DNA from: Allobosea sp. Leaf344
GTDB taxonomy: Bacteria; Pseudomonadota; Alphaproteobacteria; Rhizobiales; Beijerinckiaceae
DNA length: 64,000 nucleotides
Reading direction: 5' to 3'
NCBI RefSeq assembly: GCF_001426225.1
Contig: NZ_LMRT01000014.1
Span: 12,464-76,463, forward strand
Shown here piece after piece: positions 12,096-64,000 of this stretch. Within the stretch, counting starts at the first letter, position 1. Each line of letters opens with the position of its first letter. The translations under genes and the position numbers were made by a program. Under the pieces are notes generated by a model. It made no database searches. It was not told where the DNA came from and worked only from the letters and a program-made list of their open reading frames with translations.

Positions 12096-12132
12096 GCCGA
12101 AACCGCCGCCACCCACGCGACAGGAGACGACG

Positions 12133-39442: not shown

Positions 39443-39817
39443 TCAGACGTCGGGGCGGTGGATCGGCGTGCCGAAGACGGCGCAGTCGATCTCAGAACGG
39501 GCGATGCCCATGTCTTTCAGCATACTGTCGTCGAGGCAGGCCAGCTCGTTGGCCGCTCGCCGCAGCCGAACCAGTCTGGCGATGCCGCCCAGCTGGCCCG
39601 ATAGCGCCTCGATCAGCCGCGTCGTCATGGGACGCCGGATCGGCTCCCGACCAGGGGCGACGAATGGACCATGAACCTCGTAGAGGAAATGGTCCCCGCA
39701 TATCTGCCCGACCGCCAGGCGCCCTACCAGCCGGTCGATCACCGTCTTGCGACGGGGGCGGATCATGTCTGCGAGGTCGCCGATGTCGAAGAAAATGTCT
39801 CCATTCGGGGTATGCAT
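39443..39817 (-). CDS. DUF1127 domain protein with N-terminal extension (second of three)
   Basis: 124 residues from ATG 39817 (CGGAG upstream). The N-terminal half IRPRRKTVIDRLVGRLAVGQ, ICGDHFLYEVHGPFVAPG is shared with the protein at 46549. The C-terminal half LACLDDSMLKDMGIARSEID is DUF1127. The shared first half is not part of the classic DUF1127 and could be a separate RNA- or protein-binding module. Confidence 0.78.
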   Translation of the reverse strand: MHTPNGDIFFDIGDLADMIRPRRKTVIDRLVGRLAVGQICGDHFLYEVHGPFVAPGREPIRRPMTTRLIEALSGQLGGIARLVRLRRAANELACLDDSMLKDMGIARSEIDCAVFGTPIHRPDV

Positions 39818-46548: not shown

Positions 46549-46914
46549 TCAGTTGAGACCAGCCCGGCTCAGACAGCCCTTGGCCGCGAACGCGATGTCG
46601 AGGCGTGTCAGTCCGATGTCCTTCAGCATCCGGTCGTCGAGCCGGGACATTTCATGAACCGCGCGGCGCGCGTGTTGGCGTTGCACGAACGTGGTCAGCG
46701 CGGCGACCACGGGCGCGATCAGGCGGCGCGACGACCGCCGCGCTCGGTCCGGGACGACATACGGACCGTGAACCTCGTAGACGTACTGGTCGCCCCAGAT
46801 CTGGCCTGCCGCCAGGCGGCCGATCAGGCGATCGAGCAATGTCTTCCGGCGCGGCCTGATGAGCTCCGACAGGTTGCCGGTTTCGAGGAGAAGGGGATGG
46901 GTGTGGGCGTTCAT
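46549..46914 (-). CDS. DUF1127 domain protein with N-terminal extension (third of three)
   Basis: 121 residues. The first half, LIRPRRKTLLDRLIGRLAAG then QIWGDQYVYEVHGPYVVPD, is closely similar to the protein at 39443. The second half has the DUF1127 box SRLDDRMLKDIGLTRLDIAF. The two genes look like duplicates, about 7 kb apart on the same strand. Confidence 0.8.
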   Translation of the reverse strand: MNAHTHPLLLETGNLSELIRPRRKTLLDRLIGRLAAGQIWGDQYVYEVHGPYVVPDRARRSSRRLIAPVVAALTTFVQRQHARRAVHEMSRLDDRMLKDIGLTRLDIAFAAKGCLSRAGLN

Positions 46915-49370: not shown

Positions 49371-50534
49371 TCAGTAAGACTTTGGTTGACCAAGCACTTT
49401 CTCAGCGATGAATGACAGGATCAGTTGCTCGCTGACCGGCGCGATGCGAGTCACGAGCACTTCGCGCAACAGCCGCTCGACCTGGTATTCCTTCGCGTAG
49501 CCCATGCCGCCATGGGTGAGCACGGCCTGTAGACAGGCATCATAGCCAGCGCGAGCGCCGAGGAACTTCGCACCATTCGCCTCCGCGCCGCAGGGTTGTC
49601 CAGCGTCGTAGAGCGCGGCGGCCTTCATCGTCATCAGCCAGGCGGCCTCCAAGGCCAGCCAGCGCTCGGCCAGGGGATGCTGGATACCCTGGTTCTGGCC
49701 GATCGGGCGGCCGAAGACCGTACGCTCGCGTGCATACCGGGCGGCGCGGGCGAGGGCGTCCTGACCGATTGCAATTGCCTCCACCGCAACGAGAATGCGC
49801 TCCGGATTCAGGCTGTCCAGCATATAGGAGAAGCCTTTGCCCTCCTCGCCGATCCTGTCCTCGTCGGGAATGAAGACATCGTCGATAAAGACCATGTTGG
49901 AATCGACAGCGGCGCGGCCATGCTTCTCGATGCTCTTGACCTCGAACTTGCTGCGGTCGAGATCGGTATAGAACACCGTCATGCCGTCGACCGGGCGCTT
50001 GCCCTCGTTCTTGGCGGTGGTCCGGGTCAGCAGCAGGATCTTGTTGGCGACCTGGGCGGTCGAGGTCCAGATCTTGCGGCCGGAGACCCGGTAGCCGCCT
50101 TCGACCTTCCTGGCGAAGGTGGTGATGCTGGTGGTGTCGAGGCCGGCATTGGGTTCGGTCACGCCGAAACAGACCTGGTCCTCTCCCGAAACCAGCCGCG
50201 GCAGCCAACGCTGCTTCTGCTCCGCGCTGCCGTGGACCACGATGGGGTGGGGGCCGAACATGTTGATGTGGATCGAGGAAGCGGCAGCCATCGCTCCGCC
50301 GCAGCCGGCGACGGTGTGCATCACCAGGGCGGCATCGGTGACGCCGAGGCCGGCTCCGCCATAGGCCTCGGGCATGGTCACGCCGAGCCAGCCATCGGCC
50401 GCCATAGCCTGGTGGAACTCGCGCGGGAAGCGGGCCTCGCGCTCGCATTGCGACCAGTATTCATCGCCGAAGCGCTTGCAGACCGAGGCAACTCCGTCGC
50501 AAAGCGCTCTCTGGTCGTCATTGAGCTCGATCAT
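49371..50534 (-). CDS. Acyl-CoA dehydrogenase
   Basis: 387 residues, full length. FAD and substrate motifs include CFGVTEPNAGLDTTSITTFA, GYRVSGRKIWTSTAQVANKI, SLNPERILVAVEAIAIGQDA and TVFGRPIGQNQGIQHPLAER. The C-terminal region where most family members have YEGT with the catalytic Glu reads RIAPVSEQLILSFIAEK, so the base is not at the usual place. It should introduce a double bond into a CoA thioester of the ketone-derived acid. Last gene of the operon starting at 53484. Confidence 0.9.
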   Translation of the reverse strand: MIELNDDQRALCDGVASVCKRFGDEYWSQCEREARFPREFHQAMAADGWLGVTMPEAYGGAGLGVTDAALVMHTVAGCGGAMAAASSIHINMFGPHPIVVHGSAEQKQRWLPRLVSGEDQVCFGVTEPNAGLDTTSITTFARKVEGGYRVSGRKIWTSTAQVANKILLLTRTTAKNEGKRPVDGMTVFYTDLDRSKFEVKSIEKHGRAAVDSNMVFIDDVFIPDEDRIGEEGKGFSYMLDSLNPERILVAVEAIAIGQDALARAARYARERTVFGRPIGQNQGIQHPLAERWLALEAAWLMTMKAAALYDAGQPCGAEANGAKFLGARAGYDACLQAVLTHGGMGYAKEYQVERLLREVLVTRIAPVSEQLILSFIAEKVLGQPKSY

Positions 50535-50558
50535 GGCAGGGACAGGCTCCGTTTCCGA

Positions 50559-51491
50559 TCAGAAGGCGGTCTGGTCCGCGCCCTTCAGGCCCAGCATGGC
50601 GCGGGCGTCGGCGGGCGTGGCAACCTTGAGCGACAATTCTCCGAGAATGCGCCTGATCTTGGCGACCTGCTCCGCATTGGAGCGCGCCAGCACGCCCTTG
50701 CCGAGATGGATCGAATCCTCAAGCCCGACGCGCACGCAGCCGCCGAGGATCGCCCCCATGGTGACCAGGTTCATCTGGTGACGTCCGGCACCCAGCACGG
50801 ACAGAATATAGTCGTTGCCGAACAGCCCGTCGGCAATGCGCTTCATATGCATCAGGTTTTCGGCGTCCGGGCCGATGCCGCCGAGAATGCCGAAAATCGA
50901 CTGCACCAGGAAGGGCGGCTCGATCAGCTTCCGGTCCACGCACCAGGCGAGATTGTAGAGATGGCCGACATCATAGCACTCGAATTCGAAGCGCGTGCCA
51001 TGGGCGCTGAGCTCAGCGATTCCCCGCTCGATCTGGGCGAAGGTGTTGGAGAGGATGAAATCCCGGGTCATGCCGAGATAGGCCGGCTCCCACGCATGTT
51101 TGAAGCTCTTGATCTTATCGAGCGCCGGGAAGAGCCCGAAATTGAGCGATCCCATGTTCATCGAGGCGAGTTCAGGTTTCAGCGTGTTGGCAGCCAGCAG
51201 GCGCTGGTCCAGGCTCATCCCCAGACCGCCGCCGGTGGTGATGTTGACCACGGCATCGCAGCCCTGGCTGATCCGCGGCAGGAAACGCATGTAATCGGCC
51301 GGGTCGGAGGAGGGCTGGCCATCCTCCTCCTTGCGGGCGTGGAGATGCAGGATCGCGGCGCCGGCCGTCGCCGCGTCCAGCGCCTGCCCAGCGATCGTCT
51401 CGGCCGTGACCGGCAGCGCCTCCGACATGGTCGGCGTGTGGATCGAGCCGGTGACGGCGCAGCTGATGATGACCTTGTCCAGATGTTTCAC
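50559..51491 (-). CDS. BKACE (DUF849) beta-keto acid cleavage enzyme
   Basis: 310 residues from GTG 51491, which overlaps the stop of the hydrolase gene (GTGA). Metal-binding HLHARKEEDGQPSSDP, VNITTGGG and FECYDVGHLYNLAWC are typical. GAGRHQMN and CVRVGLEDSIHL complete the active site. The family condenses a beta-keto acid with acetyl-CoA to give acetoacetate and a shortened acyl-CoA. The residues that set substrate class were not assigned. Confidence 0.92.
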   Translation of the reverse strand: MKHLDKVIISCAVTGSIHTPTMSEALPVTAETIAGQALDAATAGAAILHLHARKEEDGQPSSDPADYMRFLPRISQGCDAVVNITTGGGLGMSLDQRLLAANTLKPELASMNMGSLNFGLFPALDKIKSFKHAWEPAYLGMTRDFILSNTFAQIERGIAELSAHGTRFEFECYDVGHLYNLAWCVDRKLIEPPFLVQSIFGILGGIGPDAENLMHMKRIADGLFGNDYILSVLGAGRHQMNLVTMGAILGGCVRVGLEDSIHLGKGVLARSNAEQVAKIRRILGELSLKVATPADARAMLGLKGADQTAF

Positions 51492-52414
51492 GGCGCATGC
51501 TCCCGGCAGGCCAGTGCGATGGCCTGCGCCATGTCGTCGACCGCCCGCTCGGCAAGGTCGACATGGTTGTGCAGCCGCGCGAAGCCATGGGTGAGGCTGT
51601 CCGCCCGCAGCAGCCGGACGGGCACGCCCGCCTGCTCGAGCGCCTTCGCATAGGCTTCGCCCTCGTCGCGCAGCACGTCATATTCGGCGGTGATCACCAA
51701 AGCGGGCGGCAGCCCGGCGAGATCGGCATGGAGCGGCGCGATATCAGGGTCGCGCCGCTGGTCGCGCGGCGCATACTGATCGAAGAACCAGATCATGTCC
51801 TCGCGGCTGAGCGGCATGCCCGCGCTGTGCGCGTGATAGCTCGGCCGCTCGAAATCACTATCGGTGACCGGGTAGAACAGGCCCTGGAAGATCGGCTCGA
51901 CCCGGCCCTTCAGGCGACGCGTGGCGACGGTGGCGAGGTTGGCGCCGGCGCTGTCCCCTGCGATGGCGAGCGGCACGCGCGCCCCGCACAGCGCCTCGAT
52001 TTGGGATGCGGCGAACGCCAGGCAATCCTCGCTATCCTCCAGCCCCGCCGGAAAGCAATGCTCGGGGGCGAGACGGTAATCCGGCAGCAGCACCGCGCAG
52101 CCGCTGCGGGCAACGATCAGCCTGGCCAGCGCCTCGAAATCCCGCGGCGAGCCCAACACCCAGCCGCCGCCATGCAGATAGACGACGAGCCCGGCCGGTC
52201 TGCCCGCCGGTTTCAGCAGCAGCGCGCCGATCGCGCCGCCGCGCGTCGGCACCAGGATCTCCGTGACGGCGCCGATGGCGGGCCCGTCTCCAAGGGCGGC
52301 GCGCGAGGCGGCGACGAGGGCGCGGCCCTGCTCCGGGGTGCCCGCCGACAGAGCGGGCCGGCCAGCCGCCGCGAGCTGCTTCAGCATGGTCTCGATGACG
52401 GGATGCAGCGGCAT
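51488..52414 (-). CDS. Alpha/beta hydrolase, GDXG (hormone-sensitive lipase) family
   Basis: 308 residues from ATG 52414. The oxyanion HGGGW (YLHGGGWVLGSPRDFEALA), nucleophile GDSAGANLA, acid Asp in TAEYDVLRDEGEAYAKALEQ and His in LTHGFARLHNHV are all present. The family includes esterases and the monoterpene epsilon-lactone hydrolase of Rhodococcus. In this cluster it may cleave the ester or lactone made by the Baeyer-Villiger enzyme; that is inference. Confidence 0.9.
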   Translation of the reverse strand: MPLHPVIETMLKQLAAAGRPALSAGTPEQGRALVAASRAALGDGPAIGAVTEILVPTRGGAIGALLLKPAGRPAGLVVYLHGGGWVLGSPRDFEALARLIVARSGCAVLLPDYRLAPEHCFPAGLEDSEDCLAFAASQIEALCGARVPLAIAGDSAGANLATVATRRLKGRVEPIFQGLFYPVTDSDFERPSYHAHSAGMPLSREDMIWFFDQYAPRDQRRDPDIAPLHADLAGLPPALVITAEYDVLRDEGEAYAKALEQAGVPVRLLRADSLTHGFARLHNHVDLAERAVDDMAQAIALACREHAP

Positions 52415-52422
52415 GATCGGGC

Positions 52423-53484
52423 TCAGGGCGTGAGCACGACGCGGCCGACGACCCGGCCGAGGCGCAGATCGGTGAGCGCCGCGGCGGCCTCGGCGAGCGG
52501 GCGCCGATCGATCGGGGTCGCGGGCAGGCCATGGCTGCGGACGAGATCCACGAGCTCGCGCAATTCGGCCGGGCTGCCGATATAGCTGCCCTGGATCGTC
52601 AGCGCCTTCATCGGGACCAGGGGCACGGGCAGCGTCATGGCGCCGCCGAACAGACCGACGATGACCAGCCGCCCGCCCTTGTCCAGGGTTTCGACCGCGA
52701 GCGTCGCGGTCTCGCCGCTGCCGACGAGATCCAGCACGCCGAGAACGCTGCCGCCGAGAGCCTGGCGCAGCGTCGCCCCGGCGTCGGGCGCCTTCGGATC
52801 GACCGTCGCGAGCGCCCCGGCGGCCATCGCAGCCTCCCGCTTGCGCGGATCGATCTCGACGACCACCGCGCCTTGGCCGCCGAGCATCTTCAGCACGCCG
52901 AGCGCGATCAGGCCGAGCCCGCCCGCACCGATGATGGCGATGGGCTGGCGCGCCAGCAAAGCTCCGAATTTCTTGAGGGCGCTGTAGGTCGTCAGGCCGG
53001 AGCAGACGAGCGGCGCCGCGGCGACCGGGTCGAGATCGCCGATCTCCACGATATAGCGGGGATGGGGCACCAGCACGTAATCCGCGTAGCCGCCATCGCG
53101 ATTGACGCCGAGAAAACGCGGCGCTGTGCAGAGATGTTCGTCGCCGGTCTCGCAGGCGGCGCATTCGCGGCAGCCGATCCAGGAACAGACGATGCAGGTT
53201 GCCCCCTCCGTGACGTCATCGACCTCGGGGCCCAGAGCGACGATCTCGCCGGCGGATTCATGGCCAAGCGTCAGCGGCAGTTTGAGACGATCCGCGAAGG
53301 ACAGCTTGCGGTCCCCGCCGAGATCGTAATGCCCCTCCCAGAGATGCACGTCGCTGTGGCAGACGCCGGCGCCGCCGATCTTGACCAGAACCTCAGTGCC
53401 AGTCGGCACGGGCCGCGGCTGCTCCCGGGCCGCAAGATCTTGGCCGAAGCCGGTCAGCTGATAGCAGCGCATCATTGGACGCAT
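52423..53484 (-). CDS. Zinc-dependent alcohol dehydrogenase (MDR family)
   Basis: 353 residues from ATG 53484 behind GGGAGGAAGCGCG. Catalytic-zinc ligands lie in GVCHSDVHLWEGHYD and LGHESAGEI. Structural-zinc cysteines lie in CSWIGCRECAACETGDEHLC. NAD(P) binding is at AIIGAGGLGLIALGVLKMLG. First gene of the minus-strand operon (alcohol dehydrogenase, hydrolase, BKACE, acyl-CoA dehydrogenase) and transcribed from the divergent region with the first operator copy. Confidence 0.92.
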   Translation of the reverse strand: MRPMMRCYQLTGFGQDLAAREQPRPVPTGTEVLVKIGGAGVCHSDVHLWEGHYDLGGDRKLSFADRLKLPLTLGHESAGEIVALGPEVDDVTEGATCIVCSWIGCRECAACETGDEHLCTAPRFLGVNRDGGYADYVLVPHPRYIVEIGDLDPVAAAPLVCSGLTTYSALKKFGALLARQPIAIIGAGGLGLIALGVLKMLGGQGAVVVEIDPRKREAAMAAGALATVDPKAPDAGATLRQALGGSVLGVLDLVGSGETATLAVETLDKGGRLVIVGLFGGAMTLPVPLVPMKALTIQGSYIGSPAELRELVDLVRSHGLPATPIDRRPLAEAAAALTDLRLGRVVGRVVLTP

Positions 53485-53569
53485 CGCGCTTCCTCCCGGT
53501 CGAGATCCCTGGCGTGGCGGCAGGCGGGGATCCCCGCTCCACGACCCCAGGGGTAAACGGGCCATGTTC

Positions 53570-53593
53570 AATCGTCAAATGGTTTGACCATTT
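53570..53593. promoter_or_regulatory. FadR-type operator, copy 1
   Basis: The core AAATGGTTTGACCATTT (53577-53593) is a perfect palindrome with seven-base arms and a TTG centre. It contains TGGTNNNACCA, the consensus of FadR-subfamily GntR regulators. The 24-base block 53570-53593 recurs identically at 59053-59076. It lies between the divergent starts at 53484 and 53691 and probably binds the regulator encoded at 57365. Confidence 0.88.
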
Positions 53594-53690
53594 AATCCGG
53601 CGTGTTACCACTGACGCCAGAAGCAGGTTCCCGCGGCCCGCAAGACCGGCTCCCGCGGCGAAAATCACCACGCAAAGGGAGCGAAGCATC

Positions 53691-54926
53691 ATGTCGACCG
53701 AGGGCTCACAGCTGGATGTCTTCAAGAGGTTGCGACCTGCGCGGCTGCTGCCGGCCGTCGCGCTCCTGTCCTACGCCGCCGGTATGCCGGCGCTGGCGCA
53801 GGAGCCGTTCAAGATCGGCGCGCTCAGCGACATGTCCGGCGTCGTGGTCGATCTCTCGGGCCCGGGCACCGTCACAGCGATGAAGCTCGCGGTCGAGGAT
53901 TTCGGCGGCAAGGTTCTCGGCCGGCCGATTCAGGTGCTCGAAGCCGACCATCTCAACAAGCCCGATGTCGGGATCGCCGCCGCCCGCAAATGGTATGATG
54001 AGGGCGTCAGCGCGATCTTCGACATCGGCATCACCTCGGTGGCGCTCGGCGTCCAGCAGCTCACCCGCGACAAGAACAAGATGGCGATCTATCTGAGCTC
54101 GGCATCCAGCGACCTGACGGGCAAGGCCTGCAGCCCCTATGGCATCCACTGGACTTACAATAATTACAGCCAGGCTCTCGGCGTCACCAAATTCTACAAT
54201 GATGCCGGTGAGAAGAACTGGTACTTCATGACCGTCGACTATGCCTATGGCCACAACGTCCAGCGCGACACGGCGGCGATCATCGAGGGCGCCGGCGGCA
54301 AGGTGGTCGGCTCGACGCGCCACCCCTTCGACACCACGGACTTCGCCTCCGACCTGCTCAAGGCGCAAGGCTCCGGCGCCAGCGTGATCGCTCTGGCGAC
54401 GACCACGGCGCATGTCGCCAACATCGTCAAACAGGCCGATGAGTTCGGCATCCGGCCGAAGCAGAAGCTGGCGGCGCTCAGCCTCACGCTGCACGACGTC
54501 AAGGGCATCGGCCTGCCCTCGGCGCAGGGGCTGCTCGTCACCGCGCCCTTCTACTGGGACCAGACCGACGAGACCCGCGCCTTCGCCAAACGCTATTTCG
54601 AACGCTTCAAGAAGATGCCCAATATGGTCCAGGGCAGCGCCTATGGCGCCGTGATGCATTACCTCAAGGCGGTCGAGGCGGTCGGGGCGGATGATACGGC
54701 GAAAATCGCCGCCAAGATGAAGGAAACGCCGATCAACGACTTCATGACCAGGAACGGCAAGATCCGCGAGGACGGCCGTGTCGTCCGCGACATGTATGTC
54801 TTCAGGGTCAAGGCGCCCGCCGCCTCCAAGGGGGAATGGGATCTCTACGAGCAGCTCTCGGTAATTCCCGGCGAGCAGGCCTTCCAGAAGGCCGACCCCG
54901 CCGCGTGCCAACTCGTCAAGGGCTGA
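53691..54926 (+). CDS. Branched-chain amino acid-type ABC substrate-binding protein, orphan
   Basis: 411 residues from ATG 53691. After a leader with a hydrophobic segment ending PALAQ comes FKIGALSDMSGVVVDLSGPG and AARKWYDEGVSAIFDIG, typical of Peripla_BP_6. Middle and end match too (YFMTVDYAYGHNVQRDTAAI). No matching permease or ATPase genes are in the window, so it may share a transporter encoded elsewhere. First gene of the plus-strand operon under operator copy 1. Confidence 0.88.
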   Translation: MSTEGSQLDVFKRLRPARLLPAVALLSYAAGMPALAQEPFKIGALSDMSGVVVDLSGPGTVTAMKLAVEDFGGKVLGRPIQVLEADHLNKPDVGIAAARKWYDEGVSAIFDIGITSVALGVQQLTRDKNKMAIYLSSASSDLTGKACSPYGIHWTYNNYSQALGVTKFYNDAGEKNWYFMTVDYAYGHNVQRDTAAIIEGAGGKVVGSTRHPFDTTDFASDLLKAQGSGASVIALATTTAHVANIVKQADEFGIRPKQKLAALSLTLHDVKGIGLPSAQGLLVTAPFYWDQTDETRAFAKRYFERFKKMPNMVQGSAYGAVMHYLKAVEAVGADDTAKIAAKMKETPINDFMTRNGKIREDGRVVRDMYVFRVKAPAASKGEWDLYEQLSVIPGEQAFQKADPAACQLVKG

Positions 54927-54945
54927 GCGTCGGGCGCGTTCCGTC

Positions 54946-54962
54946 GCCCGGCCCGGCCGGGC
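54946..54962. terminator. GC hairpin after the substrate-binding gene
   Basis: Perfect seven-base stem GCCCGGC-CCG-GCCGGGC, 20 bases after the stop and without a T-run. It could stabilise the 3' end of the binding-protein mRNA or lower read-through into the next gene. Confidence 0.3.
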
Positions 54963-55093
54963 GGCGGCACCGGCGCCCTTTCTCATCGACGGATCGCGTG
55001 CCAAGGATCAAACGCCGAAAATCACGGGCCGAGGATCGCGTTTGAACGATCGCGTTTCGGATCCCCGGCGATCGCCCGAAGCCAGGAGCCCCC

Positions 55094-56116
55094 ATGATGA
55101 ATCGCCAATGGCGCCTCGCCGCCCATCCGCAGGGAGCCGCCCAGCTCGACACCTGGAGCCTGCACGAGGCGCCAATGCCTGAGCCGGGACCGGGCCAGAT
55201 CCTGATCAGGACGCAATGGCTCTCGCTCGATCCCTATATGCGCGGCCGCATCAGCCCGGCCGCCAATTATGCCAAGGGAGTCGGCATCGGCGAGGTGATG
55301 CAGGGCGGTGGGGTCGGCGAGGTCGTGAGCTCGAACCATCCCGACTGGAAGCCCGGCGACATAGCCGAGGCGATGGGCGTGGGTTGGCAGGAATATGCGG
55401 TCCTCACGCCGGACCTGCCCGGTGCGGCCAAGGTCAACAAGGTCGATCCCGAGCTCGCGCCGCCGCAGGCTACCCTGTCTTGGCTGGGCATGCCCGGGCT
55501 CACCGCCTATATCGGCACGCTGGAGATAGGCAGGCCGAAACCCAGCGACACCATGATCGTCTCGGCCGCATCAGGCGCGGTCGGCCAGATCGCTGGGCAG
55601 ATCGGCAAGCTCTGCGGCGCGCGCGTGATCGGCATCGCCGGCTCCGACGAAAAGCTGGACTGGTGCCGCTCGGTCGGGTTCGACGCGACGATCAACTACA
55701 AGACCACCAACGACATGACCGCGGCCATCGCGGCGCTCGCGCCCAACGGCGTCGACGTCTTCTTCGACAATACCGGCGGCCCGATCCACGACGCGGTGCT
55801 GCGCAACCTCGCCGTCGCGGCCCGCGTCGTGATCTGCGGGCGCATCGCGCTCGCCAATGATTTCGAGCAGGAGGATATAGGCCTGCGCGCCTCGTCGCGG
55901 CTGGTGGTGACGCGTGCCATGCTGCAGGGCCTCGTCGTCTTCGACTGGTGGCATCGCCGTGACGAGGCCGGCGAACGCCTGCGCCTGTGGCATCGCGAGG
56001 GCAGGCTGCAGGCTAGAGAGGATGTGCTGGACGGGTTCGAACGCGTGCCTGAGGCCTTTTTGCGGATGATGGCAGGCCGCAATTTCGGCAAGCAGCTCGT
56101 GCGCGTCGGCTCGTGA
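55094..56116 (+). CDS. NADP-dependent oxidoreductase, CurA/leukotriene B4 dehydrogenase type
   Basis: 340 residues. Typical text: QILIRTQWLSLDPYMRGRIS near the start, SWLGMPGLTAYIGTLEIGRP, then the NADPH loop VSAASGAVGQIAGQIGKLCG and VDVFFDNTGGPIHDAVL. No zinc ligands, as expected for this MDR branch. Members reduce the C=C bond of alpha,beta-unsaturated ketones or aldehydes. In the cluster it could saturate an enone before the Baeyer-Villiger step (inference). Confidence 0.9.
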   Translation: MMNRQWRLAAHPQGAAQLDTWSLHEAPMPEPGPGQILIRTQWLSLDPYMRGRISPAANYAKGVGIGEVMQGGGVGEVVSSNHPDWKPGDIAEAMGVGWQEYAVLTPDLPGAAKVNKVDPELAPPQATLSWLGMPGLTAYIGTLEIGRPKPSDTMIVSAASGAVGQIAGQIGKLCGARVIGIAGSDEKLDWCRSVGFDATINYKTTNDMTAAIAALAPNGVDVFFDNTGGPIHDAVLRNLAVAARVVICGRIALANDFEQEDIGLRASSRLVVTRAMLQGLVVFDWWHRRDEAGERLRLWHREGRLQAREDVLDGFERVPEAFLRMMAGRNFGKQLVRVGS

Positions 56117-57294
56117 GCCTGGATCCACAAGCTGATCGCGCGCCGATGGCCGGCGTGCGCGTGCTCGATCTGACCGCGATCGTGATGGGCCCGCTCGCCA
56201 CCCAGCTCCTGGCCGATCTCGGCGCGGACGTCATCAAGATCGAACCGCCGGAGGGCGATGTGCTGCGAAAGGTCGGGGCGCCGCCGGGCTCCGATCGCGG
56301 ACCCCTGTTTCTTCACCTCAACCGCAACAAGCGCAGCGTCGTCCTTGACCTCAAGGCGGCCGCGGATCGCGACGCCCTGCTGCGGCTGGCCGGGCAGGCC
56401 GACATCCTGGTGCATTCCATGCGGCCGCAGGCGATGGCGCGGCTCGGGCTGGATCATGCCGTGCTGGCCGCGCTCAATCCGAGGCTGATCTATGCCGGGC
56501 TGTTCGGCTTCGGCCAGAGCGGCCCCTATGCCGAGGATGGCGCGTTCGACGACCTCATCCAAGCGATTTCCGGTCTGGCGGATCTGATGGGCCGCAGCAC
56601 CGATGGGCGCCCGCGCTATGTGCCCGCCAATCTCGCGGACCGCACGGTCGGGCTCTACGCTTTCGGCCTGATCAGCGCCGCCCTGTTCCGTCGCGAGCGG
56701 ACCGGGCTTGGTTGCGAACTCGGCGTGCCCATGTTCGAAACGCTGGCAGGCCTGCTGTTCGGCGATCATCTCTTCGGCAACAGCTTCGTTCCTGCGCGCG
56801 GCCCGATGGGCTATCCGCGCCTGATGGTCCGCGACCGGGGGCCGTTCCCGACGCGGGACGGCCATATCTGCTGCATGATCTATACCGATGCGCAATGGCG
56901 CGCCTTTCTCAAGGCGATCGGCCGAGACGGCGATCTCGCTGCCGATGTGAGACTGACCGATATGGCGGCGCGGACCCGCCACAGCGAGGAACTCTTCGCG
57001 CTTATCGCCGCCGCCACTAGCGAGCATCCGACCGCGCATTGGCTCGGCTTGCTGCGCGGGGCCGGCCTGACCGTGGTGGCGATGCGCAGCCTCGACGCGC
57101 TGCTCGACGACCCGCATCTCGGCGCTACGGGCTTTTTCCAAGAGACGGTATTACCCGGGGGCGAAACCCTGCGCCTGTTGCGGCCGGCCGGGGATTGGAG
57201 CGATTGGCGCCACGTCACCCGCCGGGCGCCGCCGCATCTCGGCGAGCACACCCGGGACGTGCTGGGCGAGGGCAGGGGCCGAGGCTGGTCATGA
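56113..57294 (+). CDS. CaiB/BaiF family CoA-transferase (first of two)
   Basis: 393 residues from GTG 56113, overlapping the previous stop. Family text: VRVLDLTAIVMGPLATQLLA, DLGADVIKIEPPEGDVLRK, HLNRNKRSVVLDLKAAADRD and NPRLIYAGLFGFGQSGPYAE. The aspartate in ADRTVGLYAFGLISAAL is the likely acyl-anhydride residue. It should move CoA from a donor thioester onto a pathway acid. A second family member at 61908 suggests two acids to activate. Confidence 0.93.
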   Translation: MSLDPQADRAPMAGVRVLDLTAIVMGPLATQLLADLGADVIKIEPPEGDVLRKVGAPPGSDRGPLFLHLNRNKRSVVLDLKAAADRDALLRLAGQADILVHSMRPQAMARLGLDHAVLAALNPRLIYAGLFGFGQSGPYAEDGAFDDLIQAISGLADLMGRSTDGRPRYVPANLADRTVGLYAFGLISAALFRRERTGLGCELGVPMFETLAGLLFGDHLFGNSFVPARGPMGYPRLMVRDRGPFPTRDGHICCMIYTDAQWRAFLKAIGRDGDLAADVRLTDMAARTRHSEELFALIAAATSEHPTAHWLGLLRGAGLTVVAMRSLDALLDDPHLGATGFFQETVLPGGETLRLLRPAGDWSDWRHVTRRAPPHLGEHTRDVLGEGRGRGWS

Positions 57295-57364
57295 GTGGGA
57301 ATGATTTGCTCTTACCATTACCGCATTGTAGCTGTCTTGGCTGCTTAACCGAACGAGGATGGCG

Positions 57365-58114
57365 ATGACGAAGCCCGAGAACGCCCCGGAGCCTGTGCTG
57401 GGACGGATTTCGGTCCAGAAATCCTATGAGATCCTCGCCGATCGGCTGCGCCAGACCATTCTGGACGGCGCCATGGTCGAAGGCTCGCGCCTGCCGACGG
57501 AGCGCGAACTGGTCAGCCAGACCGGGCTCAGCCGCGGCTCGGTCCGAGAGGCGCTGCGCAAGCTCGAGGTCGAGGGGCTCGTCAAAACCCGGCTCGGGCG
57601 TCTCGGCGGCAATATCGTCAGCCGTCCCGGCAATGAGGCGATGGCGCATTTCATCACCCAATTCGTGCGCGGACGCAGGCTGTCCTTGCGAGCCCTGCAG
57701 GAAACCCGCGAGACGCTGGAGCCGGCGCTGGCGCAATTGGCGGCGGAGCGGCGCAGCGAGGCGGATGTGCTGCGCCTGCGCGAGCTCAACGAGGAAATGG
57801 CGAACGCGCTCGGCGACCGCCAGCAATTCGCGGCGATCAACATCGAATGGCACAATGCCGTGGCCGCGGCGAGCCGCAACGACCTGCTCGCGGCCTTCCT
57901 CTATTCGATCTCCTATGGCGTCATGGTCTCGACCGTGATCGAGGAATACGACACGCCGAGCCTGCGCGGCGAGGTCGTCAAGGCGCATGAGAAGATCATC
58001 GCCGCGATCGAGGCCGGCGACGGCGCCGCTGCCTTCCGCCGCATGCAGCGCCATGTCCAGGCGACGCGCGCCATGTCGAAGGCCCGCGAGGACACCGAGC
58101 TTCCGCTGGAATAA
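57365..58114 (+). CDS. FadR-subfamily GntR transcriptional regulator
   Basis: 249 residues from ATG 57365, since GAGG then has a six-base spacing; ATG 57359 lies too close. The winged helix has LADRLRQTILDGAMVEGSRL, PTERELVSQTGLSRGSVREA and LRKLEVEGLVKTRLGRLGGN, with the SRxxVREAL pattern of FadR-type GntR proteins. The C-terminal FCD domain has IEWHNAVAAASRN. It ends four bases before the convergent CitE-like gene. It is the natural candidate to bind both TGGTTTGACCA sites. Confidence 0.92.
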   Translation: MTKPENAPEPVLGRISVQKSYEILADRLRQTILDGAMVEGSRLPTERELVSQTGLSRGSVREALRKLEVEGLVKTRLGRLGGNIVSRPGNEAMAHFITQFVRGRRLSLRALQETRETLEPALAQLAAERRSEADVLRLRELNEEMANALGDRQQFAAINIEWHNAVAAASRNDLLAAFLYSISYGVMVSTVIEEYDTPSLRGEVVKAHEKIIAAIEAGDGAAAFRRMQRHVQATRAMSKAREDTELPLE

Positions 58115-58118
58115 TCCG

Positions 58119-58988
58119 CTACGCCCCCGCCGCCGCCACGATCCGGCGTGCCAGTTTCAGATGCGGGATGTCGTACATCTTGCCGTCGATGCCGATGGTG
58201 CCGATGCCGGGATCAGCGTCGAACGCCTCCACTATGCGCTTGGCCTGGGCGAGATCTTCCGCAGAGGGCGAGAAGCAGCGATTGATCGTCTCGACCTGAT
58301 CGGGGTGGATCGCGATCCGGCCGGTGAAACCGTCGCGCTGCGAGGCGAGGCAACTCTCCGCCAGGCCCTTGGGGTCGCGAAAATCGGCATAGAGCGTGTC
58401 GATGCGCGCGACCTCCGCGGCCGCGGCGGCGAACAGGCAGAGCGAGCGCACCACGCGATAGGGCTGGGTCCAATCGCCGTCCGGCTGCTTGTTGACGCTG
58501 GAGCCGACGATCGCGCCTAGATCCTCCGCGCCCCAGGTCAGCCCCGCCAGTCGCTCATGCGCCGGGGCGTAGCTGCCGAGATTGAACATGGCGGTAGCCG
58601 TTTCGGTGGCGACGACGATGATCTTGACGGTGCCGCGCGCCATGCCGCTGCGGGTTTCGAAGGCGTCGAGATAATGCCCGATGCGGAAGATGTCGGCGGC
58701 GCCATTGGCCTTGGGCACCATGATTCCGTCGAGCCCCGGCCGCACCACCGCAGAGAGGTCGTCCAGCGTCAGCCCGGTGTCGAGGGCGTTGACGCGGACC
58801 CAGAAGCTCCAGGGCCGTTCGCTGCCGGAACCCAGCATGTCCTGCACCATGGCGCGCGCCTGCGCCTTGCGCGGTGGGGCCACAGCATCCTCCAGATCGA
58901 GGATCAGCCCATCGGCGCCGCTGGCCTGGGCCTTGGCGAATTTCCGCTCGCTGTCAGCGGGGACGAAAAGCATGGACCGCAGCTTCAT
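58119..58988 (-). CDS. HpcH/HpaI aldolase/CitE-like lyase
   Basis: 289 residues from ATG 58988 with GGGAG about nine bases upstream (ATG 59012 is an alternative). Text: MLFVPADSERKFAKAQASGA, DGLILDLEDAVAPPRKAQAR, GIMVPKAN and GLTWGAEDLGAIVGSS, as in the beta subunit of citrate lyase and malyl-CoA lyases, with metal-binding acidic residues in the LEDAV and AEDL positions. It likely cleaves or forms a hydroxyacyl-CoA bond. It is divergent from the monooxygenase operon at operator copy 2. Confidence 0.9.
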   Translation of the reverse strand: MKLRSMLFVPADSERKFAKAQASGADGLILDLEDAVAPPRKAQARAMVQDMLGSGSERPWSFWVRVNALDTGLTLDDLSAVVRPGLDGIMVPKANGAADIFRIGHYLDAFETRSGMARGTVKIIVVATETATAMFNLGSYAPAHERLAGLTWGAEDLGAIVGSSVNKQPDGDWTQPYRVVRSLCLFAAAAAEVARIDTLYADFRDPKGLAESCLASQRDGFTGRIAIHPDQVETINRCFSPSAEDLAQAKRIVEAFDADPGIGTIGIDGKMYDIPHLKLARRIVAAAGA

Positions 58989-59052
58989 GATCTCGATCTC
59001 CCAGGTAGTCACAGGAACCGGCAGGCCGAGAGGGTTAGCGCGTTGCGAGACT

Positions 59053-59076
59053 AATCGTCAAATGGTTTGACCATTT
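59053..59076. promoter_or_regulatory. FadR-type operator, copy 2
   Basis: Identical 24-base block to 53570-53593, with the palindrome AAATGGTTTGACCATTT at 59060-59076. It lies between the divergent starts at 58988 and 59145. Two exact copies 5.5 kb apart at the two divergent promoter regions point to joint control of four transcription units. Confidence 0.88.
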
Positions 59077-59144
59077 CTGGATTTGCGCTAGCCTGCAGGT
59101 AACGACGACGCGACAGGCGTCGCATGGCCAGGGAGAAGCGGCCC

Positions 59145-60824
59145 ATGACCCAGCCGAGCGAAGCCCCAGCGCGGCGCCCCGCCGACGCAGAGCAACTCGA
59201 CGTTGCCATCGTTGGGGCGGGCTTTGCCGGCCTCTATATGCTGCACAGGCTCCGCAAGCTTGGCTTCAGGACGCGCGTCTTCGAGGCGGCGTCAGATGTT
59301 GGCGGCACATGGTTCTGGAACCGCTATCCCGGGGCGCGCTGCGATGTTGAAAGCATGCAGTATTCCTATTCCTTCGACGAGGAACTGCAGCAGGAATGGC
59401 GCTGGAGCGAGCGCTTCGCCGCCCAGCCGGAAATCCTGCGTTACATCAACCACGTCGCCGACCGCTTCGATCTGCGCCGCGATGTCGTGTTGGACACGCG
59501 CATCGCTTCGGCGCGCTTCGACGAGGCCACTGCGTGCTGGACGCTGCAGACGCAGGGCGGCGAAAGGATAGTCGCGCCGTTCTGCATCATGGCGACGGGC
59601 TGCCTCTCGGCGGCTCGCCTGCCGGATTTTCCTGGTATGGCCGATTATCGCGGAAAAATTTTGCATACAGGGCAATGGCCGCATGAGGGCGTCGCATTCG
59701 ACGGGCTGAACGTCGCAGTGGTCGGAACAGGCTCTTCGGCCATCCAGTCCATTCCGCCTATCGCGGCGCAGGCGCGCCATCTCACGGTATTCCAGCGAAC
59801 GCCGAATTTCAGCGTGCCGGCGCGCAACTGGGCGATGACTCCGGAGTATGAGGAGAGATGGAAGCGCGACTACGCCGCCCTGCGCCAGCGCGCCCGCGCC
59901 GAAACCCGCTCGGGCACGATCTACGAGTTCAGCGACAAGGGCGCGCTCCAGGTCGATGCGCAGGCCCGCAAGGCGGAATATGAGCGCCGCTGGCAGAAGG
60001 GCGGCGCCAATTTCATGCACGCCTTCAACGATATCTTGGTCGACCGCCAGGCCAACGACACCGCTGCCGACTTCGTCCGCGACAAGATCCGCGAAACCGT
60101 CGCCGACCCCGAACGGGCCGAAGCGCTACTGCCCCATGATCATCCGCTAGGGACAAAGCGGATCTGCGTCGACACCGATTATTACGAGACCTTCAACCGC
60201 GACAATGTCAGCCTCGTCGATATCCGCGCAACGCCGATCGAGACGCTGACGGAGGCGGGCCTGCGCGTCGGCGGGCGCGACTACGCCTTCGATGCGATCG
60301 TCTTCGCCACAGGCTTCGACGCGATGACGGGCGCGCTGGCCGCGATCGACATCCGGGGCCGCGATGGCCTTGCTTTGAAACAGGCCTGGGCTTCGGGCCC
60401 ACGCACCTATCTCGGGCTGATGAGTGAGGGCTTCCCCAATCTCTTCACCATCACCGGGCCAGGCAGCCCGTCGGTGCTGAGCAACGTCATCGTCTCGATC
60501 GAACAGCATGTCGACTGGATCGCTGATTGCCTTGACCATCTCCGGCAGGCCGGCATCCGCACAATCGAGCCCGAGCCGGAGGCGCAGGAGGAGTGGGTCG
60601 CCCATGTCAACGAGGTCGCCCACCGGACGCTCTATCCGCAGGCGAACTCCTGGTACATGGGGGCCAATATCCCCGGCAAGACGCGAGTCTTCATGCCGTA
60701 TATCGGCGGTGTCGGCGCCTATCGGCAGATCTGCGAACAGGTCGCGGCGAATGGCTATCGCGGCTTCCGGCTGATGCCCGCGCCGGGCGCCGACAGGCTC
60801 GAGAGCCTATCCGTCGCGAGCTGA
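59145..60824 (+). CDS. Baeyer-Villiger-type flavin monooxygenase
   Basis: 559 residues from ATG 59145 (GGGAGAAG upstream; ATG 59124 is less likely). FAD loop: DVAIVGAGFAGLYMLHRLRK. NADPH loop: VAVVGTGSSAIQSIPPIAAQ. Between them is YRGKILHTGQWPH, a Phe-to-Tyr form of the Baeyer-Villiger fingerprint FxGxxxHxxxWP. GGTWFWNRYPGARCDVES is also typical of the group. It should insert oxygen next to a ketone carbonyl to give an ester or lactone. First gene of the operon under operator copy 2. Confidence 0.92.
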   Translation: MTQPSEAPARRPADAEQLDVAIVGAGFAGLYMLHRLRKLGFRTRVFEAASDVGGTWFWNRYPGARCDVESMQYSYSFDEELQQEWRWSERFAAQPEILRYINHVADRFDLRRDVVLDTRIASARFDEATACWTLQTQGGERIVAPFCIMATGCLSAARLPDFPGMADYRGKILHTGQWPHEGVAFDGLNVAVVGTGSSAIQSIPPIAAQARHLTVFQRTPNFSVPARNWAMTPEYEERWKRDYAALRQRARAETRSGTIYEFSDKGALQVDAQARKAEYERRWQKGGANFMHAFNDILVDRQANDTAADFVRDKIRETVADPERAEALLPHDHPLGTKRICVDTDYYETFNRDNVSLVDIRATPIETLTEAGLRVGGRDYAFDAIVFATGFDAMTGALAAIDIRGRDGLALKQAWASGPRTYLGLMSEGFPNLFTITGPGSPSVLSNVIVSIEQHVDWIADCLDHLRQAGIRTIEPEPEAQEEWVAHVNEVAHRTLYPQANSWYMGANIPGKTRVFMPYIGGVGAYRQICEQVAANGYRGFRLMPAPGADRLESLSVAS

Positions 60825-60867
60825 CCAGCGACAAGTCGACAATCAAAAAACCCGGGAGACATGCAGC

Positions 60868-61842
60868 ATGATCACCGACATCACCAGGCGGCTCTGCATC
60901 GCGGCCCTCATAGCGGCCGCATCGACAGCGGCCTTCGCCCAAGGCGGCGCCTATCCGCAATCGCCTGTAACGATCATCGTGCCGTTCCCGGCCGGCAGCG
61001 CGACCGATGCGGTGGCGCGGAAGGTCGGGGAGGGGCTGCAGAAGCAGCTCGGCCAGAATTTCGTGATCGAGAACAAGGCCGGCGCCGACGGAATCCTGGC
61101 GGCGCGGGCGGTCGCCTCGGCGCAGCCGGACGGATACACCCTGTTCATCACCACCAACACGACCCATTCCGCCAATCCGGCGATCTACCGGCAATTGCCC
61201 TACGATCCCAGGAAGGATTTTGCCCCGGTCGGGGGCATCATCCGCATCCCTTTCATGGTCGCGACGCGGCTCGATTTCCCCGCCGACGACTTCGCCGGCT
61301 TCGTCAGCGCGGCCAAGGCGGCGAAACCAGCCCTGACCTATGGCAGCGGCAATACGGGCAGTCGCGCTTCGGGCGAGCTGCTCAAGGCGCGGCTCGGCTT
61401 CGACATGGTGCATGTGCCCTATCGCGGGTCGCCACAGGCACTGACCGACCTGATCGGCGGGCGGATCGACGTCTTCTTTCCCGATCCGGCCAGCGCGCTC
61501 GGCATGCTGCAAGAAAAGAAGTTCAAGGTCATGGCCGTGACCGGCCCAAAGCGCATCCCGACCCTACCGGCAATCCCGACCGTGATCGAGCTCGGCGTGC
61601 CTGATTTCAACATCGTCGCCTGGGTCGCGGCCTTCGCCCCGGCGGGCACGCCCTCGGCCGTCGTTCAGCGTCTCAACACGGCGCTGAACACGCTGCTGCG
61701 CGATCCGGAGATGGTCGCCTTCATCGACAGGATCGGCTCGGAAATCCTCTCCACCACCCCGCCCGAACTCGCCGCCTATGTCGATGAGGACGCCAAGCGC
61801 TGGGTCGATCTCGTCGAGATCGCCAAGATCGAGAAGAAGTGA
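60868..61842 (+). CDS. Bug/TctC family solute-binding protein, orphan
   Basis: 324 residues with a signal peptide (LCIAALIAAASTAAFAQ). Text: YPQSPVTIIVPFPAGSATDA, VIENKAGADGILAARAVA, QPDGYTLFITTNTTHSANPA and LTYGSGNTGSRASGELLKAR, typical of tripartite tricarboxylate transporter receptors. The partner genes tctA and tctB are not in the window. It probably binds a carboxylated substrate or intermediate. Confidence 0.92.
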   Translation: MITDITRRLCIAALIAAASTAAFAQGGAYPQSPVTIIVPFPAGSATDAVARKVGEGLQKQLGQNFVIENKAGADGILAARAVASAQPDGYTLFITTNTTHSANPAIYRQLPYDPRKDFAPVGGIIRIPFMVATRLDFPADDFAGFVSAAKAAKPALTYGSGNTGSRASGELLKARLGFDMVHVPYRGSPQALTDLIGGRIDVFFPDPASALGMLQEKKFKVMAVTGPKRIPTLPAIPTVIELGVPDFNIVAWVAAFAPAGTPSAVVQRLNTALNTLLRDPEMVAFIDRIGSEILSTTPPELAAYVDEDAKRWVDLVEIAKIEKK

Positions 61843-61907
61843 GGCCCCCTCGGCCCGCGCCGGTCGTCGGGATAGGCGGCGCCGCATCACGCAGCAGGAG
61901 AATAATC

Positions 61908-63095
61908 GTGCCTAAGCCGTTGAAGGGAGTCAGGGTTCTCGACCTGACAAAGGTTCTGGCCGGGCCCCTCTGCTGCCAGTATCTCGGCGAAATGGGCGCC
62001 GAGGTGATCAAGGTCGAGCCGCTCGGCGGCGACGAGACTCGCGGCTGGCCGCCGTTCCGCGGCCCCGGGCTGGGTGCCGTCTTCCTCAGCGCCAACCGCA
62101 ACAAGCGCAGCATCGCTGTCGACTTAAAGACGCAGGCCGGGCGCGACATCGTCCACCGGCTCGCGGAACGCGCCGACATCGCGATCGAGAGCTTTGGCAC
62201 CGGCGTGGTCGAGCGGCTTGGTATCGACGCGCAGACTCTGCGCCAGCTCAACCCGCGGCTGATCTATTGCAGCATCTCCGGCTTCGGACGAACCGGCCCG
62301 ATGCGCGATGCGCCGGGCTACGACGTCATCCTCCAGGCCTTCTGCGGGGTGATGGCGCTGACCGGCGACGCGGCGGGCGGGCATATCCGCAGCCCGATCT
62401 CGCCGATCGACCAGATGACCGGCACCCATGCGCTGAGCGGCATCCTTGCGCTGCTCTACCAGCGCGCAATGACCGGTAAGGCCGGCACCGTCAATGTCTC
62501 GCTCTATGACACGGCGATGGGGCTGCTCGGATACAATCTGCAGACCTATTGGGAGAAGGGCGTCCAGCCGCCCAAATGCGGCTCGAGCCATGAGGCGCTG
62601 TGCCCCTACCAGGCGTTCGAGGCGCAGGACGGGCCGATCATGATAGGCGTCGCCAATGATCATCTTTGGCGCAAATTCTGCGCGGCGGCGGGGCTGGAGG
62701 CGATCGTCGATCACCCACATTTCCGCAGCAATGCCGACCGGGTCCGGAACCGATCAGCGACGCTCGTCCATGTCCAGACCGCGCTCGCGGCACGAACGGT
62801 GGCGCATTGGCACGAGGCCCTGTCGCGAGCCGGTATCCCATGCTCGCCGATCAACTCGCTGGCGCAATTGCTCGCGCACCCCCACACCGCCGCGAGCGGC
62901 ATCGTTTTGGATTACGAGCACCCAACCGGCGGCCGGCTGAAGGGCATCGGCCAGCCGGTGCGCTTCGACGGGGAGCCGGCGCAGCCGGGCCTGCCGCCAC
63001 CCGATCTCGGTGCGCATACCGACGCCGTGCTCGCCGAAATCGGATTCTCGGCCGCCGACATCGCCTCGCTGCGCGATGAGCGGGCGGTCGCCTGA
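61908..63095 (+). CDS. CaiB/BaiF family CoA-transferase (second of two)
   Basis: 395 residues from GTG 61908 behind GGAGAATAATC. Text: LKGVRVLDLTKVLAGPLCCQ, YLGEMGAEVIKVEPLGGDET, LSANRNKRSIAVDLKTQAGR and YCSISGFGRTGPMRDAPGYD. The aspartate in SPIDQMTGTHALSGI is the likely catalytic residue. It lies between the binding protein and enoyl-CoA hydratase genes and should start CoA-dependent breakdown of the acid. Confidence 0.93.
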   Translation: MPKPLKGVRVLDLTKVLAGPLCCQYLGEMGAEVIKVEPLGGDETRGWPPFRGPGLGAVFLSANRNKRSIAVDLKTQAGRDIVHRLAERADIAIESFGTGVVERLGIDAQTLRQLNPRLIYCSISGFGRTGPMRDAPGYDVILQAFCGVMALTGDAAGGHIRSPISPIDQMTGTHALSGILALLYQRAMTGKAGTVNVSLYDTAMGLLGYNLQTYWEKGVQPPKCGSSHEALCPYQAFEAQDGPIMIGVANDHLWRKFCAAAGLEAIVDHPHFRSNADRVRNRSATLVHVQTALAARTVAHWHEALSRAGIPCSPINSLAQLLAHPHTAASGIVLDYEHPTGGRLKGIGQPVRFDGEPAQPGLPPPDLGAHTDAVLAEIGFSAADIASLRDERAVA

Positions 63096-63121
63096 GCCCC
63101 CACGCTTGACGGAGTGCGCTC

Positions 63122-63895
63122 ATGTCGATCGACCTGACCCGGGACGGATCGGTCGCGATCATCACGATAAACCGGCCGGAGCGGCGTAATGCCATGGATG
63201 CGGCGCATTACCGGGCCTTGTCCGAGGCTTGGATCGAGATCCGTGACGATGCGCGCATCCGTGCCGCCATCGTCACCGGCGCCGGCGACCAAGCCTTCAC
63301 CGCCGGCGCCGACATCAAGAGCTTCACCGCGGCCGCGCCGCCGCTCGCCGAGCTGATGCTGACGCAGCAGGGCCAGCTCTTGAACCGGGGGCTCGAACTG
63401 TGGAAACCAGTGATCGCTGCCGTTAATGGCGATTGCCTCGGCGGCGGCATGACCTTGATGCTGGCGACCGACATCCGGATCGCCGCACCCCATGCCCGCT
63501 TCGGCGTGACGGAGGTCAAGCGCGGGCTGTTCCCAGCGAATGGCGGCACCCAGAGGCTGATCCGGCAATTGCCGCATGCGCTCGCGATGGAGCTGCTGCT
63601 GACCGGCGACAGCGTCGACGCGGCCTTGGCCGAGCGCTGGGGGCTGATCAACCGAATCGTCCCGGCTGACACGGTGATGAGCGTGGCGCGCAATTATGCC
63701 GACCGCATCTGCGCGAATGCGCCGCTCGCCGTGCAGGCGGCCAAGGAGCTGGCCCTGCGCAGCTGGGATGTCGACCTGCCGACCGGCCTGCGGCTCGAAC
63801 AGCTCATGCTGCGCCTGCTCCAGACCAGCGAGGACATCCAGGAGGGGTCGCTGGCCTTTTCCGAGAAGCGGCCGCCGCGCTTCACCGGCTCCTGA
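63122..63895 (+). CDS. Enoyl-CoA hydratase/isomerase (crotonase family)
   Basis: 257 residues. ITINRPERRNAMDAAHYRAL, TGAGDQAFTAGADIKSF and PVIAAVNGDCLGGGMTLMLA give the CoA and oxyanion sites. The two catalytic glutamates of the hydratase branch are kept (TEVKRGLFPANGGTQRL and ALAMELLLTGD). It should hydrate the enoyl-CoA formed by the acyl-CoA dehydrogenase. Confidence 0.92.
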   Translation: MSIDLTRDGSVAIITINRPERRNAMDAAHYRALSEAWIEIRDDARIRAAIVTGAGDQAFTAGADIKSFTAAAPPLAELMLTQQGQLLNRGLELWKPVIAAVNGDCLGGGMTLMLATDIRIAAPHARFGVTEVKRGLFPANGGTQRLIRQLPHALAMELLLTGDSVDAALAERWGLINRIVPADTVMSVARNYADRICANAPLAVQAAKELALRSWDVDLPTGLRLEQLMLRLLQTSEDIQEGSLAFSEKRPPRFTGS

Positions 63896-63935
63896 GCCGC
63901 GATCCGCCACCGTCACATCAGAGAGGACGCCCGCC

Positions 63936-64000
63936 ATGGCTGGCTTGTATTTCGACGACTTGTCCATTGGCCAGGTCTTCCGCCACGAGATCCGGCGGAC
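63936..64000 (+). CDS. MaoC-like dehydratase (partial, cut by window end)
   Basis: Only 21 complete codons are seen: MAGLYFDDLSIGQVFRHEIR and one more Arg. FDDLSIGQVF is the typical start of MaoC hotdog-fold enoyl-CoA hydratases. It continues the operon that starts with the monooxygenase. Confidence 0.7.
   Translation, partial: MAGLYFDDLSIGQVFRHEIRR

Follow-up and report, generated by a model that had tools for sequence, protein, structure and literature searches.

The 64,000-nucleotide stretch of the Allobosea sp. Leaf344 genome analyzed here (the window; C13:12464-76463 of a 4.35-Mb genome) carries, from position 49371 to just beyond its end, 14 neighboring genes that form a candidate catabolic regulon. 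Gene families were assigned by Pfam and NCBIfam scans together with a gene caller, and positions are window coordinates. The four leftmost genes lie on the reverse strand and encode an acyl-coenzyme A (CoA) dehydrogenase (ACAD; 49371..50534; PF00441, PF02770, PF02771), a beta-keto acid cleavage enzyme (BKACE; 50559..51491), a GDXG/HSL-family esterase (51488..52414), and a zinc alcohol dehydrogenase (ADH; 52423..53475; PF08240, PF00107; start from the gene caller). Four forward-strand genes follow, for an ATP-binding cassette (ABC)-type substrate-binding protein (SBP) of the Peripla_BP_6 family (53691..54926; PF13458, 335 bits; start from the gene caller), an enone/double-bond reductase (ENR) of the CurA/PTGR family (55094..56116), a CaiB family III CoA-transferase (CaiB1; 56113..57294; PF02515), and a GntR/FCD transcription factor (57359..58114; PF00392 and PF07729). 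A CitE-like CoA-ester lyase on the reverse strand (58119..59012; PF03328) is followed on the forward strand by a type I Baeyer-Villiger monooxygenase (BVMO; 59124..60824), a TctC-type periplasmic binding protein (60868..61842; PF03401), a second CaiB family III CoA-transferase (CaiB2; 61839..63095, start possibly 61908), a crotonase-fold enoyl-CoA hydratase/isomerase (63122..63895; PF00378), and a MaoC-type hydratase (PF01575). All of the enzyme classes named in the original prediction are thus present, although MaoC only begins in the window (63936..64000, with its start at ~63936) and runs on to C13:76857; the SBP, the GntR/FCD regulator, and the TctC-type protein are additions to its list. 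Rfam scans at gathering scores gave no match.

Both divergent intergenic regions, ADH/SBP and CitE/BVMO, contain the same 23-bp imperfect palindrome, AATCGTCAAATGGTTTGACCATT, at 53570..53592 and 59053..59075, respectively (no strand is assigned). Its 15-bp core is found in 12 of 12 places, that is, in both regions of each of the six genomes examined; the full form is exact in 10 of these and has one mismatch in the other two. The core has two matches in the window, versus 0 expected in shuffles, and its only two perfect matches in the whole 4.35-Mb genome are both at this cluster. When up to two mismatches are allowed, a reversed control pattern gives 6 hits per strand versus 7 for the core, so only perfect core sites are informative. 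Two one-mismatch core sites elsewhere in the genome were rejected; they lie inside called genes, and the genes around them match none of the cluster or aldehyde dehydrogenase (ALDH) queries. In one relative (G004), CitE as called begins upstream of the palindrome and is probably too long. The core was not found before the GntR gene in the six genomes. A similar sequence, GTCAAATGGTAGGACCA, occupies the gap between GntR and CaiB2 in a distant cluster from another family of the class (L155), which has the MaoC-CitE part, a GntR protein of 46% identity, and no BVMO match. Because both divergent promoters carry the same palindrome, the 14 genes probably form one regulon. The GntR/FCD protein is a candidate reader of this putative operator.

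The cluster is conserved within the genus. All 14 genes are found in the same order in three other genomes (G013, G049, and G050), and 13 of 14 are in order in G004, where BKACE is missing from the block; the block is rearranged and lacks CaiB1 in G038 and is more strongly rearranged in G041. Gene order that is kept across related genomes argues against a chance neighborhood, and the claim of a single cluster, for which a neighborhood comparison had been suggested, is borne out. The possibility that two unrelated pathways have become neighbors by chance would account for the finding that, in several lineages, the lower part (the CoA-ester genes around MaoC and CitE) stands without a BVMO match. 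However, the order kept in four genomes, the content largely retained in the rearranged clusters, and the palindrome shared by both promoters make it very improbable. Of 67 genomes of the genus, 6, the present one included, have a CitE ortholog with at least 83% identity, and the genes flanking the block differ between genomes, as judged from printed protein starts; the cluster is therefore an accessory block. At E<=1e-60, 65 of the 67 genomes have a CitE match. The block of G050 includes an additional ALDH gene (Pfam), those of G013 and G049 carry ALDH genes 85-87% identical to it, and G038 has one nearby that is 67% identical. An island inserted at a tRNA gene was considered and rejected, as no tRNA gene is present in the window, in the 18 kb downstream (L002), or in the corresponding stretches of five relatives. 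Beside the cluster in G004, primase-like and integrase-like genes (L133, 90-4718; recognized by inspection) suggest a mobile island at that site.

The BVMO indicates what kind of ketone may be oxidized. Its best relatives with solved structures are phenylacetone monooxygenase (PAMO; 690 bits over residues 18-550, with 300 of 531 aligned residues identical) and steroid monooxygenase (636 bits), whereas the best cyclohexanone enzyme scores 508 bits. Phenylacetone and steroid monooxygenases act on methyl ketones. In the alignment, PAMO R337 and D66 correspond to R346 and D74 of the BVMO, which we take to be catalytic residues. Type I BVMOs carry the fingerprints [AG]GxWxxxx[FY]P[GM]xxxD and FxGxxxHxxxW[PD]. 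The first is present as GGTWFWNRYPGARCD; a strict search for the second gave no match, and the sequence at the corresponding site is YRGKILHTGQWP, in which Tyr takes the position of Phe. Full-length similarity and the retained catalytic Arg place the protein among the type I enzymes. The three best solved relatives of ENR have no telling name, and most of those that follow are named as reductases of double bonds or of 2-alkenal, pulegone, zingerone, or prostaglandin; the score against the CurA curcumin reductase model (NF058644) is 339.8 bits, below its cut-off of 440. The hydrolase belongs to the GDXG/HSL group (family IV) by its Abhydrolase_3 domain (PF07859) and its HGGGW and GDSAG motifs. 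It falls short of the LipP1 equivalog (265 versus 350 bits), and its best solved relatives are esterases and lipases of the alpha/beta-hydrolase-3 type.

The zingerone-type relatives of ENR (among them ketone/zingerone synthase) and the similarity of the BVMO to PAMO would suit a route in which an aryl ketone of the benzalacetone, raspberry-ketone, or zingerone type undergoes reduction and oxidation to an arylethyl acetate, the alcohol, and an arylacetate. Such a route leaves MaoC, CitE, and BKACE unexplained, and no ring-hydroxylating or ring-cleaving family is found among the 14 genes; we regard it as quite improbable.

The lower part shows features of branched acyl-CoA metabolism. In the ACAD, the catalytic Glu usual in the C-terminal part is missing. 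All 6 aligned members have a Glu at the position typical of isovaleryl/long-chain enzymes, presumably with the role that it has in isovaleryl-CoA dehydrogenase. Relatives of MaoC and CitE were located on plasmids, and 14 plasmid loci with CitE were fetched. The four in which CitE is below 50% identity are all of a leucine type, with MaoC at 56-58% and CitE at 47-49%: carboxyl-transferase and biotin-carboxylase genes are followed by MaoC-CitE, which end the row (L150, L158, L159, and L160). The hosts are Rhizobium sp. CC-CFT758, R. etli (p42c), Agrobacterium larrymoorei, and Novosphingobium capsulatum. An annotated isovaleryl-CoA dehydrogenase heads the row in the last three; in Rhizobium sp. 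CC-CFT758, genes for branched-chain oxoacid dehydrogenase and aminotransferase are present, and ACAD matches a stretch that carries no annotation. The Liu pathway uses enzymes of the crotonase and hydroxymethylglutaryl-CoA (HMG-CoA) lyase families. Neither is annotated in the four rows, in a gene table that is incomplete, so MaoC and CitE most simply replace them there. By analogy, the pair in the present cluster probably hydrates a 3-methyl-enoyl-CoA and then cleaves the resulting tertiary alcohol by a retro-aldol reaction. A second MaoC-CitE pair, with CitE at 50-53% identity, is present in the same genome (L139, 8486-10017) and in a different genus of the family (L157, 9452-10868). The part of PMC12977620 available to us has no bearing on the pair.

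The leucine-type context also bears on an alternative in which an itaconate/alkylsuccinate-type module similar to RipABC makes up the lower part and acts on a C5 or alkylated dicarboxylate supplied by the upper part. The logic of CoA-transferase, MaoC, and CitE is like that of itaconate degradation by RipABC, and the best NCBIfam match of CitE is RipC. CaiB2 resembles dicarboxylate CoA-transferases, its best solved relative being succinate-hydroxymethylglutarate CoA-transferase, and a CoA-transferase of the acetyl-CoA hydrolase/transferase type adjoins MaoC-CitE in G041, on plasmid pHR1a, and on plasmid pMaq22A_2p. However, the RipC score of CitE falls far short of the cut-off (168.7 versus 375 bits), and in the leucine-type operons the substrate of its relatives would be methylglutaconyl-CoA; for these two reasons we consider an itaconate-type module rather unlikely.

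Related clusters elsewhere indicate how the two parts are combined. The best related core in the plasmid collection spans ~19 kb of Novosphingobium resinovorum plasmid pHR1a, which encodes an alkene reductase, a BVMO (61% identity), an NADP-dependent oxidoreductase, BKACE (53%), a CoA transferase, ACAD (69%), an alpha/beta hydrolase (33%), and ADH (42%), together with a second CoA-transferase, CitE (53%), MaoC (82%), and ALDH. Its oxidoreductase (45%) and CaiB (68%) are closer to the G041 versions than to those of the window, and its ENR-type protein, CaiB, second CoA-transferase, and ALDH match G041 or G050 versions. At a further locus (L094), a BVMO gene lies near a CaiB-CitE-MaoC-ACAD row. 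MaoC and CitE with BKACE and/or ACAD, and with no BVMO match in the DNA fetched, are found on plasmids of Methylobacterium aquaticum, Sphingopyxis, Sphingobium, Diaphorobacter, Tistrella, and Azoarcus and likewise in L152-L155. The order on the Azoarcus KH32C plasmid is MaoC-CitE-ACAD-acetoacetate-CoA ligase. Related lower-part clusters also carry branched-chain-type ABC transporters, some annotated and some recognized by inspection. Those of G041 (L118, L138) and M. aquaticum pMaq22A_2p (L144) have genes for HyuA/B, a CoA transferase, a DUF7065-type protein, and an APH-type phosphotransferase in an order common to both.

The binding proteins, the related ABC transporters, and the occurrence of MaoC-CitE-ACAD without a BVMO match suggest that the ketone is made from an acid inside the pathway and is not the imported substrate. 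These observations bear directly on the original prediction, which saw a pathway for ketone, possibly terpenoid, degradation modeled on the carvone/menthone route of Rhodococcus. In that scheme, a cyclic or monoterpene ketone would be imported and reduced at its double bond, the BVMO would form a lactone, the GDXG hydrolase would open it, and the hydroxy acid would be degraded via CoA esters. The proteins do belong to the families that such a scheme names, the reductase, BVMO, and GDXG-type hydrolase recall the Rhodococcus route, pulegone reductases are among the ENR relatives, and 9 of 80 BVMO loci have a GDXG1 match in the same locus. Unlike that route, which we compare by its description alone, the present cluster has a CoA-dependent lower part, found elsewhere with ABC transporters, and a BVMO closest among solved structures to methyl-ketone enzymes; the binding proteins, in turn, suggest an acid. 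We therefore do not favor the carvone/menthone model, and the import of a ketone as the first step appears unlikely, while the ideas of one catabolic unit, a ketone-oxidizing step, and a possible terpenoid substrate are retained.

A methyl branch at the beta-carbon prevents ordinary beta-oxidation, and the bypass known from bacteria relies on a carboxylase. In the Liu/Atu systems for leucine and acyclic terpenes, an acyl-CoA dehydrogenase, a hydratase, and a lyase cut a 3-hydroxy-3-methyl-type acyl-CoA. The present cluster would follow the same logic, with MaoC and CitE in place of crotonase and HMG-CoA lyase, but whereas Liu/Atu includes a biotin-dependent acyl-CoA carboxylase, none is found among the 14 genes. 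Cleavage of a beta-methyl acyl-CoA would therefore give a methyl ketone. From gene content, conservation, promoter sequence, enzyme families, and leucine-operon context, we infer a substrate and an order of reactions. We tentatively propose, with confidence somewhat short of an even balance, that the regulon, probably under the control of the GntR/FCD protein, degrades a carboxylic acid of the isoprenoid type that is methyl-branched at the beta-carbon. The substrate would be taken up as the carboxylate (step 1), converted to its CoA ester by CaiB (step 2), and dehydrogenated by ACAD where needed (step 3). MaoC would hydrate the 3-methyl-enoyl-CoA to a tertiary alcohol (step 4), which the CitE-like lyase would cleave in a retro-aldol reaction to acetyl-CoA and a methyl ketone (step 5). 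If the ketone is an enone, ENR would saturate it (step 6). Oxygen insertion by the BVMO would then give an acetate ester (step 7), the GDXG esterase would release acetate and a primary alcohol (step 8), and ADH with the aldehyde dehydrogenase encoded in the relatives' cluster would form a shorter acid (step 9). The second CaiB, the crotonase, and BKACE would complete the breakdown (step 10). The cluster is a combination of known enzyme families in which each reaction is a proposed one. No described cluster of this combination, nor an assignment of the same gene set to another substrate, was found among the literature matches listed, which do not cover most subscription papers; this agrees with the original prediction, which recognized the combination from no described pathway.

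Several observations weigh against this proposal. The lower part often occurs with no BVMO match in the DNA fetched. In a survey of 385 genomes of the class (CitE at E<=1e-86, BVMO at E<=1e-195, best few candidates scored per genome), CitE was found in 18 genomes and BVMO in 65, and in the 17 CitE genomes other than the present one, no BVMO match was listed on the contig that carries CitE. In the DNA examined, CitE is present in only 2 of 80 BVMO loci, many of which are short: L034 (Bosea vaviloviae SD260) and L094. Ten of the 14 plasmid CitE loci are not of the leucine type, and the further MaoC-CitE pairs of L139 and L157 lie outside any leucine-type row. ALDH queries matched nothing in the window, the downstream L002, or the stretch from G004, and in the window no permease gene adjoins either binding protein. 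In the crotonase, Thr replaces one of the two usual Glu residues, which we take to be catalytic. The placement of BKACE is the weakest part of the scheme: steps 2-9 would not require it, and the G004 block lacks it.

BKACE itself matches PF05853 (327 bits), and its best solved relative is 3e02. BKACEs require a free beta-keto acid and acetyl-CoA. The protein also passes the NCBIfam model for the 3,5-dioxohexanoate enzyme (NF053538; 492 bits, cut-off 430), as do 4 of 4 other BKACEs tested, so the label is broad. According to the available part of PMC11961710, a Paracoccus BKACE with 3,5-dioxohexanoate activity was confirmed on other beta-keto acids as well, and 3,5-dioxohexanoate was dropped as a guide to the substrate on both grounds. 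The available portions of two further BKACE papers (PMC4922564, PMC12133276) contain nothing on residues of use here.

A similarly annotated row is found in a terpene-degradation island. In the monoterpene island of Castellaniella defragrans, an (R)-specific enoyl-CoA hydratase, a citrate lyase, and an acyl-CoA dehydrogenase are listed in a row, and an acetoacetyl-CoA synthetase follows four transporter genes (PMC4109377, as far as its text was available). On alpha-phellandrene, the hydratase was 19-fold up, the lyase was unchanged, and the dehydrogenase was seen only under that condition; the absence of atu genes is pointed out by the authors (PMC4109377, same text). The likeness is one of annotation and order, a limit that also counts against the proposed pathway. 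Unlike the present cluster, the island as tabulated in the accessible part of PMC4109377 includes neither BVMO nor BKACE.

The chemistry of abscisic acid breakdown offers a more specific lead. As described in the available parts of PMC9599779 and PMC7996341 (also PMC12349427 and PMC12509608), Rhodococcus P1Y converts abscisic acid to dehydrovomifoliol and then to rhodococcal acid. The former is a conjugated methyl ketone, and the latter is a ring with an acetic acid side chain (PMC9599779, PMC7996341); a BVMO was suggested for the step between them (PMC9599779). These are the products expected from steps 2-9, both metabolites arising in steps 5-9. The known case differs in being from Rhodococcus, and no genes are named for it in the parts of PMC7996341 and PMC9599779 available. 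Abscisic acid may serve as a testable substrate lead, drawn from this chemical analogy and not from the genome, and other isoprenoid acids fit equally. We consider it distinctly unlikely that the specific version applies, namely a carboxylase-free route in which retro-aldol cleavage yields a methyl ketone that is removed by the BVMO and abscisic acid or a similar apocarotenoid acid from plants is what the cluster degrades in nature. If true, the cluster would be a first set of genes for the bacterial breakdown of abscisic acid; should the substrate be this acid or a related apocarotenoid, genes would be supplied for a reported conversion that touches a plant stress hormone. Retro-aldol cleavage coupled to Baeyer-Villiger oxidation would be a second bypass of the beta-methyl block, carried as an accessory regulon. 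Whatever the substrate, the cluster defines a candidate operator and a recurring MaoC-CitE-ACAD module.

Other features of the region are recorded here. Directly downstream of the cluster, two adjacent genes encode Ferritin_2 domain proteins (L002, 5206-6600, reverse strand). Within the window, a hydantoinase A/B-like gene pair recognized by inspection (6317-10002, forward strand) is followed by apparent transporter genes (10186-13176). The reverse-strand genes at 39443-39817 and 46549-46914 encode small proteins related to each other (45% identity over 116 residues); each lies within a stretch of larger regulator-like genes, possibly a duplicated unit.

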